Shown here piece after piece: positions 11,394-14,953 of a stretch of 64,000 bases of DNA (position 1 is its first letter; each line of letters opens with the position of its first letter). The notes beneath the pieces are model-generated. The model saw nothing but the letters and a program-made list of their open reading frames with translations, was not told where the DNA came from and did no database searches. Location of the stretch: assembly GCA_017642895.1 (NCBI GenBank), contig JAEPON010000018.1:1-64000 (forward strand). Direction: 5' to 3'. The DNA comes from Roseitalea sp. (lineage in GTDB: Bacteria; Pseudomonadota; Alphaproteobacteria; Rhizobiales; Rhizobiaceae). The position numbers were made by a program, and so were the translations under genes.

Positions 11394-12110
11394 TCAGCGC
11401 TCGGTCGGCCGATCGAGCACCGTAACGGGCATCGCGGCGGCCACCGCGCGCCGCAAACGGACGATATCGGCATCGGTCATTTTGGTGTTGGTGACCAGCG
11501 GCAAGCCGGGCCGCTCCGCCGTCCAGCCAACGACATGCACCCTGTCGGCCGCCGGCTCATGGGCCCTGGCAATCTGCCAGGTCACGCAATCGACAGCGGC
11601 AAGGCGCGCCGCCCCTTCCGCGACGGCCGTGATCGATGCGCGGTGCGAACCGGTCCAAATGACGGGCTCGGGAAATGGCCGGCCGGCTTGCGCACCATCG
11701 CGCTCCAGCGCCACATAGCCCGACATCGAATCCGGCGCATTGGCGGCCAGCGGCCCGTCCAGCGATCGGGGCAACATGGCACCGGTGTCGACAGGCGGCG
11801 CGGCATCCGCGCCCCGGCCGGACGCGATGATCACGCTGCGATAGGTGCCGGCGCCGCAGCCCGGCGCGTCGTGGATCGGCGTTGCGACATAGCGCACGCG
11901 GCTTTGCAACGCGGTTTCCAGCGGATATGTGCAGGTCTCCCCCAACAGGAGGTCCGGGCTCAGCCACGTGGATTGCGGATCGTCGGCCCGGGTGAGGGCG
12001 TGGGGTGCGTCAAACCCCGCATCGCGCAGCGCGTCGCGCAGACGGGCCCACAGCGCATCGATTGCACCATGGCGCTCCGGCCAGTCATACATGGGCAGGC
12101 AGGCGATCAT
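11394..12110 (-). CDS. PhnD-like (phosphate/phosphonate ABC type) substrate-binding domain protein
   Basis: The 238-residue protein has the fold signature of PhnD/SsuA/transferrin-like binding proteins: ACLPMYDWPERHGAIDALW at the start, LLLGETCTYPLETAL, then GTYRSVIIASGRG and a late domain that ends VTNTKMTDADIVRLRRAV. It has no signal peptide and no ABC permease or ATPase gene beside it, so a transport role is not supported. It follows the desaturase gene by 9 bases on the same strand, so it should be cotranscribed with it. Its ligand is unknown. It may be a cytoplasmic ligand-binding protein or a remnant of a transporter. Confidence 0.7.
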   Translation of the reverse strand: MIACLPMYDWPERHGAIDALWARLRDALRDAGFDAPHALTRADDPQSTWLSPDLLLGETCTYPLETALQSRVRYVATPIHDAPGCGAGTYRSVIIASGRGADAAPPVDTGAMLPRSLDGPLAANAPDSMSGYVALERDGAQAGRPFPEPVIWTGSHRASITAVAEGAARLAAVDCVTWQIARAHEPAADRVHVVGWTAERPGLPLVTNTKMTDADIVRLRRAVAAAMPVTVLDRPTER

Positions 12111-12119
12111 GACGGGCGG

Positions 12120-13130
12120 TCAGTGCCGTGCCCTGGCGGCGAATGGCATGGCTTCGGCGGGAAAGGCAGCCGGCGCCACCGATGCCGGCCGGGCGGCACC
12201 GGACGTTTCCGCCGGCGCCGTCGTGGGAACCGCCACGGCACGCCGCCGGGCCGGATGGACGACCGGCTCCTTGGCCGACAGGGCATGGGCGCGGAAGATC
12301 TGCCAATAGCTGCGATAGACATAGGCCTTGTTGGCGGCCAGCCATTCCTGGCGACGCTCGCGGTAAAGGCGCGGAAGTTCGTACCAGGGCGCAGCGGGCC
12401 GCCGGTGGTGCACGACATGCAGATTGTTGTTCAGAAACAGCCATGACAGGATTCGGCTTTGCTCGACAACAACGGTGCGGCCATCGGGCGTCTGGTCCCA
12501 GCGATGCTCGCAATAGGTCCGGATGGCGATCAGCGCCATGCCGCCATAGGCGACGGTGATGACATAAAGCAGCGGGTTTATGCCCATGCCGATCCAGACA
12601 ATGGCGGCAAGACCCACAAGGCCCAGGGCGTGATGGACCCATGCGCGGCGCACGCCGGGACTGCCGGCGGCGAAATTCCGCGCATCGTCGCGCCAGAAGC
12701 CGAATGCCATCAGCGGAGGCCCGATCACCAGACGACCGACAAACGTGTTGTTGGCGGCAAGCAGGGCACGCATCGGCCAGGCCATTGCCGCATGGTCACC
12801 CTCGGCCCGATACCAGCTTTCGGGGTCGTCATAGGGGTCGGTCAGGTTCTCGTCATTGTGGTGGCGCAGATGCAGCGCCTTGAACCGCCGGAACGGGAAC
12901 GCAACGGCCAGTGGCAGCGCAACGAGCAGTTCGTTGACGGCGCCGCTGCGTGTGGGATGGCCGTGCAGCGCCTCATGCTGCAAGGATGTGTGGAACCCGG
13001 CGGCGACGGCCATCAGCGCCAGCGCCAAAGCCGGCATGGTGGGAAAGATCAGGAAACCGGCACCCGCCCAAACCCCGTAGCAAAGCGCCAACATGGCCAG
13101 TGTCGGCCACTCAATCGTTCGTTTTCTCAT
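12120..13130 (-). CDS. membrane fatty acid desaturase family protein
   Basis: This is a di-iron membrane desaturase/hydroxylase. The three histidine boxes are present: HEALH (residues 52-56), HLRHH (87-91) and HVVHH (238-242), with hydrophobic segments between. The substrate could be acyl lipid or another lipid (ketolase/hydroxylase-like enzymes share this core); the sequence does not decide. After about residue 285 there is a 50-residue Ala/Pro/Val-rich tail of low complexity, which is not part of the catalytic core. The gene is divergent from an XRE regulator. The shared 137-base region holds a row of operator-like repeats, suggesting control by that regulator. Confidence 0.88.
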   Translation of the reverse strand: MRKRTIEWPTLAMLALCYGVWAGAGFLIFPTMPALALALMAVAAGFHTSLQHEALHGHPTRSGAVNELLVALPLAVAFPFRRFKALHLRHHNDENLTDPYDDPESWYRAEGDHAAMAWPMRALLAANNTFVGRLVIGPPLMAFGFWRDDARNFAAGSPGVRRAWVHHALGLVGLAAIVWIGMGINPLLYVITVAYGGMALIAIRTYCEHRWDQTPDGRTVVVEQSRILSWLFLNNNLHVVHHRRPAAPWYELPRLYRERRQEWLAANKAYVYRSYWQIFRAHALSAKEPVVHPARRRAVAVPTTAPAETSGAARPASVAPAAFPAEAMPFAARARH

Positions 13131-13144
13131 CGTGATTCGTTACC

Positions 13145-13164
13145 CCTGACAACAAGATGTCAGG
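13145..13164. promoter_or_regulatory. perfect 7-bp inverted repeat before the desaturase start
   Basis: CCTGACA (13145-13151) and TGTCAGG (13158-13164) are exact inverted repeats with a 6-base spacer. The element ends 14 bases upstream of the desaturase ATG. It could be an operator or a hairpin in the 5' untranslated RNA. It differs in sequence from the half-sites nearer the XRE gene. Confidence 0.5.
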
Positions 13165-13203
13165 AGCGGCGACACTTTGAAACGCGGGAATGCGCACTAA
13201 AGG

Positions 13204-13263
13204 TTGATTCACGTCATCAAATCCACCAAATGTTGATAATTGTCATCAAACGTCTGGTTTGAT
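13204..13263. promoter_or_regulatory. array of TTGAT/ATCAA operator-like half-sites
   Basis: Five half-sites alternate in orientation: TTGAT (13204), ATCAA (13216), TTGAT (13233), ATCAA (13245) and TTTGAT (13258-13263). They make three palindromes with a constant 7-base spacer: 13204-13220, 13233-13249, and ATCAAA-N7-TTTGAT at 13245-13263. The array ends 4 bases before the XRE start codon and lies between the two divergent genes. It is most simply read as the binding region of that regulator. Confidence 0.6.
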
Positions 13264-13267
13264 CTGC

Positions 13268-14128
13268 ATGTCCGAAACATCAACCGATACGATCGACAAA
13301 CGCGACGCCTCGCGGCTGTTCCGCGAAAGGCTGGCGCGGCTGCTGCTCCGTTCGGGGCTCAACCGATCGCAGTTCGCCGGCACCGTCGGGCTCGACAGGT
13401 CTGCGCTATCGCAGCTCCTGTCGGGTGAAACCGCGCGGTTGCCCCGCGCCGAAACGCTGATCCGCATCGCCGCGACCCAATCGGTCAGCCTGGACTGGCT
13501 GCTGGGCCTCAGCCAGGACGAGGGCGTGTCCGCGGAAATCCGCCCGGCGCTGGAACTGGAGGAAGCGCAGGATTCGCGCGACGATGCGGCGCTGATGCAA
13601 TGGCACCAGGACGCGGCCGGCACAAAAATCCGCTATGTGCCCGCGACCATTCCCGATTTTCTGCGAACCGATGCGGTCATCGCGTTCGAGACGCGCGAGA
13701 CCAAACCGCCGGTCGCCGCGCAGATCGACGATGCGCGTGAACGGCTTGCCTACAGCCGCAAGCCGGAAAACGATACCGAAGTGTGCATGCCGCTGCAGAC
13801 CCTGCAAGCACTCGCCGAGGGCAACGGTCCATGGGCGGCGCTGAACGAACCGGTTCGCCATGCGCAAATCCGCCAGATCGCCGCGCTGACCGACGATCTT
13901 TATCCCGGCCTGCGGCTTTTCCTGTTCGACGCCAGGCGCACATTCTCGGCCCCCTACACGGTGTTCGGGCCGACCCGCGCGGCGGTCTATATGGGCGACA
14001 TGTATCTGGTTCTGAACGCGAAAGATGCCATCGACGCGCTGACCCGCCATTTCGACCAACTGATCCGCGCGGCTGTCGTGCGGCCGCACGAAGCCGGCGC
14101 CGTTATCGGGTCGCTGATCCGGTCATGA
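13268..14128 (+). CDS. XRE-family transcriptional regulator with C-terminal sensor-like domain
   Basis: An N-terminal helix-turn-helix of the Cro/C1 type covers about residues 15-75 (LNRSQFAGTVGLDRSALSQ is the recognition region). The remaining 200 residues have the look of the DUF5753-type ligand or interaction domain known from actinobacterial regulators (RYVPATIPDFLRTDAV; a later FGPTRAAVYMGDMYLV); this is a resemblance by eye only. I chose the ATG at 13268 over a TTG at 13259, because the latter lies inside an operator-like palindrome. No clear ribosome binding site is visible. The gene is divergent from the desaturase and probably controls it and itself. Confidence 0.8.
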   Translation: MSETSTDTIDKRDASRLFRERLARLLLRSGLNRSQFAGTVGLDRSALSQLLSGETARLPRAETLIRIAATQSVSLDWLLGLSQDEGVSAEIRPALELEEAQDSRDDAALMQWHQDAAGTKIRYVPATIPDFLRTDAVIAFETRETKPPVAAQIDDARERLAYSRKPENDTEVCMPLQTLQALAEGNGPWAALNEPVRHAQIRQIAALTDDLYPGLRLFLFDARRTFSAPYTVFGPTRAAVYMGDMYLVLNAKDAIDALTRHFDQLIRAAVVRPHEAGAVIGSLIRS

Positions 14129-14536: not shown

Positions 14537-14953
14537 TCAGGCGTCTTCCGCGGCGAGCGATTTGACAAGATCAATGATGCGGCGGCGCACCTTGGGGTCG
14601 GCAATCTTCACAAAGGCGCGGTTGAGCTGAAGACCCTCCGAACTCGACAGGAAGCTGACCACATAGGTGGACGCATTCTCCTCAAGACCCGACGCGGCCG
14701 CCGGGGCGCTGTCATCGGGTGCGTCCTCGAAAAAGAACGATACAGGCACGTTCAGGATCGATGCGATGTTTTGAAGCCGGCTGGCACCGACCCGGTTGGT
14801 GCCCTTTTCATATTTCTGGACCTGCTGGAACGTGATGCCCAGGCTCTCGCCGAGCTTCTCCTGGCTCATGCCCAGCATCGTCCGGCGCAGCCGGATGCGG
14901 CTGCCGACATGGATATCGATGGGATTGGGTTGCTTCTTTTTCTTGTCGTTCAT
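14537..14953 (-). CDS. XRE-family transcriptional regulator (Rhizobiales lnt-metK type)
   Basis: A 138-residue DNA-binding protein. The helix-turn-helix (about residues 14-72) reads VGSRIRLRRTMLGMSQEKLG and FQQVQKYEKG. The C-terminal part (about 90-138) is conserved in Rhizobiales homologs (SFLSSSEGLQLNRAFVKIADPKVRRRIIDLVKSLA). In relatives this gene commonly sits between lnt and metK. Here lnt is directly upstream, but metK is about 8.6 kb away behind truA, def-fmt and the accessory genes. Its target is not known to me. It seems to have its own promoter (15053-15081). Confidence 0.9.
   Translation of the reverse strand: MNDKKKKQPNPIDIHVGSRIRLRRTMLGMSQEKLGESLGITFQQVQKYEKGTNRVGASRLQNIASILNVPVSFFFEDAPDDSAPAAASGLEENASTYVVSFLSSSEGLQLNRAFVKIADPKVRRRIIDLVKSLAAEDA

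Follow-up and report, generated by a model that had tools for sequence, protein, structure and literature searches.

A conserved tandem repeat array as the putative operator region of an XRE regulator and a divergent fatty acid desaturase in Roseitalea

We analysed a stretch of 64,000 nucleotides from Roseitalea sp. (hereafter the window; contig JAEPON010000018.1), in which an array of short repeats is located between the gene of an XRE regulator and a divergently oriented fatty acid desaturase gene. The features of the locus, in window coordinates, are as follows:

11394..12110, minus strand: homologue of PhnD-like binding proteins (PF12974, 42.9 bits), adjoining the desaturase
12120..13130, minus strand: fatty acid desaturase (PF00487, 128.4 bits), divergent neighbour and presumed target
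13147..13162, no strand assigned: conserved inverted repeat TGACA-N6-TGTCA, found in 59 of 96 upstream regions
13182..13199, no strand assigned: O3, upstream conserved block ACGCGGG-AATG-CGCACTA, repeating the O1 block directly in the family profile
13202..13219, no strand assigned: O1, putative second operator copy GGTTGAT-TCAC-GTCATCA (half-sites 1 and 2), a direct repeat of O2
13231..13248, no strand assigned: O2, putative main operator TGTTGAT-AATT-GTCATCA (half-sites 3 and 4), from the family profile with symmetry centre 13239.5
13259..13263, plus strand: fifth TTGAT half-site, just 5' of the ATG, at a spacing of 9 and not 7
13268..14125, plus strand: XRE regulator of 286 aa with HTH_3 (PF01381) and, from a structure model, a PLD-like C-terminal domain

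A second small XRE-type protein is encoded nearby on the minus strand (14537-14953, HTH_3 48.3 bits). Literature searches of limited scope, covering mostly the starts of abstracts, returned no description of this locus.

Five half-sites can be read directly in the sequence, TTGAT at 13204-13208, ATCAA at 13216-13220, TTGAT at 13233-13237, ATCAA at 13245-13249 and TTGAT at 13259-13263, with successive gaps of 7, 12, 7 and 9 bases. This alternation, which had been described in the original prediction, is far from chance, as base shuffles of the 137-bp intergenic region contained five half-sites in 1 of 5000 cases (mean 0.33), and TTGAT-N7-ATCAA twice in none of 20,000 and once in 3. Over the whole window, TTGAT-N7-ATCAA was observed twice against 0.03 expected, with two or more copies in 0 of 100 shuffles, and the genome search that had been proposed for the same pattern returned six sites in 4.33 Mb, two of them at the present locus, while the reversed control pattern returned none. 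Of the three palindromes that had been claimed to share a 7-base spacer, two are indeed TTGAT-N7-ATCAA, whereas the third is ATCAA-N9-TTGAT, in the opposite orientation.

In this genome, the array consists of two direct copies of GTTGAT-N4-GTCATCAAA, at 13203-13221 and 13232-13250, spaced 29 bp apart, a distance that corresponds to a non-integer number of helical turns. All 15 outer bases are identical between the copies and all four bases of the central spacer differ, which favours a 4-base spacer; the 7-base spacer described earlier includes three constant bases, GTC. A repeat finder delimited the O1 and O2 copies as 27 nt long and 78% identical, at the same spacing. TTGAT-N7-ATCAA was rejected as the true operator, because the copies differ exactly in the 4-base centre and the symmetry of the family is best at 13239.5. 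O2 is positioned 20-37 bp 5' of the regulator's ATG.

Of the genomes compared, 161 of 297 in the family and 48 of 199 in the order carry a homologue of the regulator, Oceaniradius stylonematis being a close named relative with 89% protein identity. The desaturase is the divergent neighbour in all 34 fetched loci, the window included (31 distinct, as L037, L038 and L039 apparently duplicate L008, L009 and L014), in 5/5 more distant loci and in 6/6 loci from other families of the order, so that all 45 desaturase-type loci compared (42 distinct) have this arrangement. A PhnD-like protein match accompanies 30 of the 34 loci, all five more distant ones and all six in other families of the order. 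By contrast, none of 15 homologues of lower identity (40-46%) has a desaturase within 1.5 kb upstream, and these were treated as paralogues.

We compared 111 upstream regions, from 110 of the 161 homologue-bearing genomes plus locus L040 (80 loci chosen mostly for genus spread, and 30 taken directly from the homologue search). The 15 paralogue regions (L106-L120) were excluded from training and counted separately, and an ungapped profile, seeded with the window's own 60-mer, was built from the other 96. The profile shows conservation over some 78 bp, for which the majority consensus reads CAACGCGACAATGCGCACAAAnTGTTGATnTTGCGCAnCAAnnnCnnCAnnTGTTnTnTATnGTAAACAA. In counts for which the profile had been trained on most of the same sequences, O3, O1 and O2 exceeded the 99% shuffle threshold in 81, 84 and 88 of the 96 upstream regions, respectively; of the 81 regions where both O1 and O2 passed, 73 had them at a spacing of exactly 29 bp, and O3 and O1 stood at a fixed 20-bp offset in 69 of 75. 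When training was restricted to random halves, the held-out regions, 57 each time, passed for O2 in 53, 49 and 47 cases and for O1 in 44, 47 and 39, with the exact 29-bp spacing in 36/43, 36/44 and 31/36. In the same held-out tests, the paralogue regions passed rarely (of 15, O2 in 3, 1 and 0; O1 in 1, 2 and 4; O3 in 2, 0 and 2).

As judged from these alignments, O2 is strongly conserved in relatives, and most of these also conserve O1 at the 29-bp distance. O2 fell below threshold in 8 of the 96 main-group regions, among them L066, where the array is located about 500 bp upstream, beyond the fetched stretch. When the nine loci of the window's genus and its close neighbours were left out of training, O2 still passed in all nine, weakly in L011, whose best O2 match in the 96-region scan is a sequence other than its aligned site. 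O1, however, was recognised at its own place in 0 of 9, with all four O1 matches falling on O2, suggesting that O1 of the window's lineage has drifted from the family form. Despite this drift, O1 in the window genome is a near copy of O2. The O1 profile also picks O2 in six regions, which argues that O1 and O2 are one kind of site. In the Oceaniradius stylonematis record (L008, with L037 as its apparent duplicate), the sequence that would run from inside the inverted repeat almost to O2 is absent and replaced by a single N; a gap in the assembly is the probable cause, not a true deletion.

For the motif alignment we used 79 of the 82 regions scoring at least 15 bits (L027, L061 and L067 were omitted, though all three match the 78-bp model). 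Within this alignment, the raw complementarity of O2 is best at centre 13239.5, corresponding to a 7-4-7 site, and not at 13241; the outer TG/CA pair is present in 74 of 79 sequences and TGTT/AACA in 47 of 79. Dyad covariation at O2 was tested in the same 79 sequences and not found, and neither O1 nor O3 has a clear palindrome centre there. Self-comparison of the profile, with null maxima from 100 column shuffles, recovered the O3/O1 direct repeat at offset 20 clearly (5.7 against 2.4), and the O1/O2 direct repeat at offset 29 (2.6 against 2.4) and the O2 inverted repeat (5.4 against 4.7) each by a small margin.

The orthologous regions thus conserve a multi-site array adjoining the XRE gene, as had been predicted, and its blocks are kept in the alignment of relatives, but the fifth half-site is not generally among them. 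Just 3 of 79 aligned regions (L007, L009 and L083) have a TTGAT at its offset, as does L008. Among loci of the genus, L008 and L009 carry the fifth half-site, and L010 and L011 lack it; it is probably incidental. The half-site at 13245-13249 is shared by the second and third of the claimed palindromes, as originally noted, but the competition between bound dimers that was proposed on this basis depends on the fifth, non-conserved half-site. Two dimers side by side, 29 bp apart, fit the data better than half-site sharing or competition.

The family form of O3, CAACGCGACAATGCGCACAA, starts two bases earlier than O3 as delimited in the window. It coincides with a CAAYGNGA-type block at 13180-13199, here AAACGCGG, whose conservation at least equals that of the operators; the A at 13182 and the G at 13184 are invariant in 82 regions. 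Upstream of it, the inverted repeat TGACA-N6-TGTCA keeps its gap of 6 in 58 of 59 regions. Its distance to the CAAYG block is exactly 17 nt in 51 of the 56 regions in which both were found, whereas in 17 loci anything from 17 to 111 nt separates it from the approximate start of the desaturase. A hairpin over the desaturase start is therefore not favoured. The near-fixed arms and fixed phase suggest that TGACA-N6-TGTCA is a DNA site, which a second factor may recognise. The pattern has four genomic sites, and two of the three others (L153 and L154, for which open reading frame lists alone were consulted) have no clear common theme.

The 78-bp model matched the window genome at the present locus alone (46.7 bits, the next match scoring 8.6). 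Among 297 whole genomes, 111 were matched at E<=0.01, in one place each; a second match in 7 of the 111 overlapped the first on the opposite strand. The match was directly 5' of the regulator in 107 of 111 genomes, at a median of 24 bp and a maximum of 497 bp (G238), and elsewhere in none, the four remaining genomes (G005, G026, G034 and G093; E from 8.6e-6 to 0.0088) having no regulator homologue. Of six loci in other families of the order, the model also matched five; at E<=0.1 it matched 4 of 11 distant desaturase-type regions (L095-L105), and it matched none of the 15 paralogue upstream regions at E<=1. The shorter pattern TGTTKAY-N4-RTMAWCA has its single genomic match at the present locus, and its reversed control has one per strand, so that this count is uninformative alone. 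No second place indicative of a wider regulon was found in the window genome or in the 111 matched genomes with this model, which would miss a lone O2-type site. Given one place per genome, directly before the regulator in nearly every case, the array looks like a dedicated local switch.

The regulator scores above the curated cut-off of HTH_3 (27.5 bits, cut-off 23), and its only Pfam matches at E<=0.001 are HTH_3, HTH_19 and HTH_31, with the repressors of phages 434 and P22 among the best structural and sequence matches of the HTH. No Pfam family matched the C-terminal domain significantly. A full-length structure model was of middling quality (pLDDT 77.1), and a separate model of the C-terminal domain (residues 90-286, 43 sequences) reached a pLDDT of 89.2 and a pTM of 0.85. 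With this C-terminal model, Foldseek returned 11 chains at E<=0.001, all of them PLD-family nucleases or TrmBL2, at modest TMq values of 0.40-0.47, and VIA gave Z scores of up to 11.8 (150 aligned, rmsd 3.2), where a Z of 7-8 is typical for models without a clear match. The C-terminal domain thus models as a PLD-like fold. The catalytic HxK motif is absent from all 29 regulators of alignment A1, and by this motif test the protein is not an active member of the Phospholipase D superfamily.

The presumed recognition helix, which we placed by its likeness to the 434 repressor, reads DRSALS in all 29 regulators of A1 and in five distant desaturase-linked ones, and DRST in the 15 paralogues. The upstream sites differ in parallel: TGTT-N10-AACA is present in 52 of 96 main-group upstream regions vs 0 of 15 paralogue regions, and GTGA-N6-TCAY in 5 of 15 paralogue regions vs 0 of 96. 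The latter palindrome is located near the start codon of the desaturase-less homologues at L109, L110, L115, L116 and L119. This tracking of site type with recognition-helix sequence lends correlative support to the regulator itself reading O2.

What the analysis demonstrates directly is the repeats with their conservation and constant spacing, the neighbouring genes, the occurrence at one place in each matched genome and the predicted folds; the array is real, conserved and probably regulatory. Our preferred reading, to which we assign a probability of roughly two in three, is that the array is the putative operator region of the XRE regulator, where two dimers at O1 and O2 control both the regulator and the desaturase, and that the PLD-like domain senses a ligand. 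We infer the regulator as the binder, repression as its effect, cooperation between its dimers and the kind of ligand involved. Two regulator dimers would occupy O1 and O2 next to each other, with their centres 29 bp apart; the O2-bound regulator would block transcription of its own gene, and the desaturase would be controlled from the same array. The PLD-like domain, devoid of HxK, probably binds a small ligand that changes DNA binding, and this ligand is perhaps a lipid or lipid precursor. A ligand-sensing role, maybe for lipids, is suggested by the parallel with TrmB together with the desaturase neighbour.

Alternatively, the conserved blocks could mainly be core elements of two overlapping divergent promoters, the TTGAY of O1 acting as a -35 element and the regulator binding at most at O2. 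The want of a clear O1 palindrome in the family, the strong conservation of TTGA and CAAYG at fixed spacing, and the quality of TTGAY as a -35 hexamer are all consistent with such promoters. However, a simple scan of 13060-13320 for sigma-70-type promoters, to which other promoter types are invisible, found none; no -10-like hexamer is evident by eye at 16-18 bp in the profile; and a direct repeat as close to exact as that of O1 and O2 in the window genome would be unexpected for promoter elements. We regard this alternative as unlikely. The accompanying terminator scan likewise found none, and a search for RNA elements in 12900-13500 returned no Rfam match at E<=5.

TTGAT-N4-ATCAA is the known FNR/FixK box, and an FNR/FixK-type regulator binding to the array would place the oxygen-dependent desaturase under oxygen control. 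The half-site letters are identical, and locus L014 contains the exact TTGAT-N4-ATCAA at O2. Across the family, however, just one of the 79 aligned sequences has TTGA-N6-TCAA at O2, and just one of the 96 upstream regions contains it at any position; on this box test we rejected membership of the FNR/FixK regulon, and we consider control by such a regulator highly improbable. Least credible of all is that the TTGAT/ATCAA alternation arose by chance in an AT-rich spacer: neither the fifth half-site nor the exact TTGAT-N7-ATCAA string (3 of 111 scanned upstream regions) is generally conserved, but shuffles seldom or never match the array and many genera conserve the underlying blocks, so that chance is refuted for O2 and possible for the fifth half-site alone.

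The operator reading supplies an exact putative operator (O1 and O2, with an N4 spacer and a 29-bp period) for a widespread regulator-desaturase pair. It also raises the possibility that bacterial transcription control uses a PLD-type fold as a lipid-sensing domain. A bolder version, which we put forward as a tentative and rather doubtful proposal, is that the HxK-less PLD fold has become a sensor of a membrane lipid or lipid precursor and that the XRE-PLD-like family sets the expression of a dedicated desaturase through the tandem operator and the phase-locked element. If true, several families of one alphaproteobacterial order would have retained a switch for membrane homeostasis with this single target.

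Among known systems, the regulator shares its DNA-binding fold with the phage 434 and P22 c2 repressors and with HTH_3 (XRE) autoregulators, and the locus resembles autoregulators of the 434/P22 type in having a palindromic site beside the regulator's own gene, a divergent control region and more than one site. Unlike that type, the regulator here has a PLD-like C-terminal domain, a desaturase as its partner and direct-repeat site copies at 29 bp; operators of the lambda type are spaced about 23-24 bp. The PLD-like C-terminal fold is shared with the archaeal TrmB/TrmBL2 proteins (5box_A, TrmBL2: Foldseek E 1.3e-4, TMq 0.46; VIA Z 11.2, rmsd 3.0, 132 aligned), and in TrmB the corresponding part is a sugar-binding domain, according to the PDB title of 2f5t. 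In contrast to TrmB, the partner gene here encodes a lipid enzyme and the N-terminus is HTH_3, with the Pfam search giving HTH types only and no TrmB-type winged helix. In length and layout, the regulator also resembles the actinobacterial XRE-DUF5753 (Scr1-type) proteins, as far as these are outlined in the part of PMC10364602 consulted (258-295 aa, an HTH near 16-72 and a second domain near 100-280), a comparison of described layouts. A Pfam search gave no DUF5753 match in three C-terminal domains at E<=10. The type of operator is familiar, and it is the architecture of the regulator and the phase-locked layout of the array that make this system a variant.
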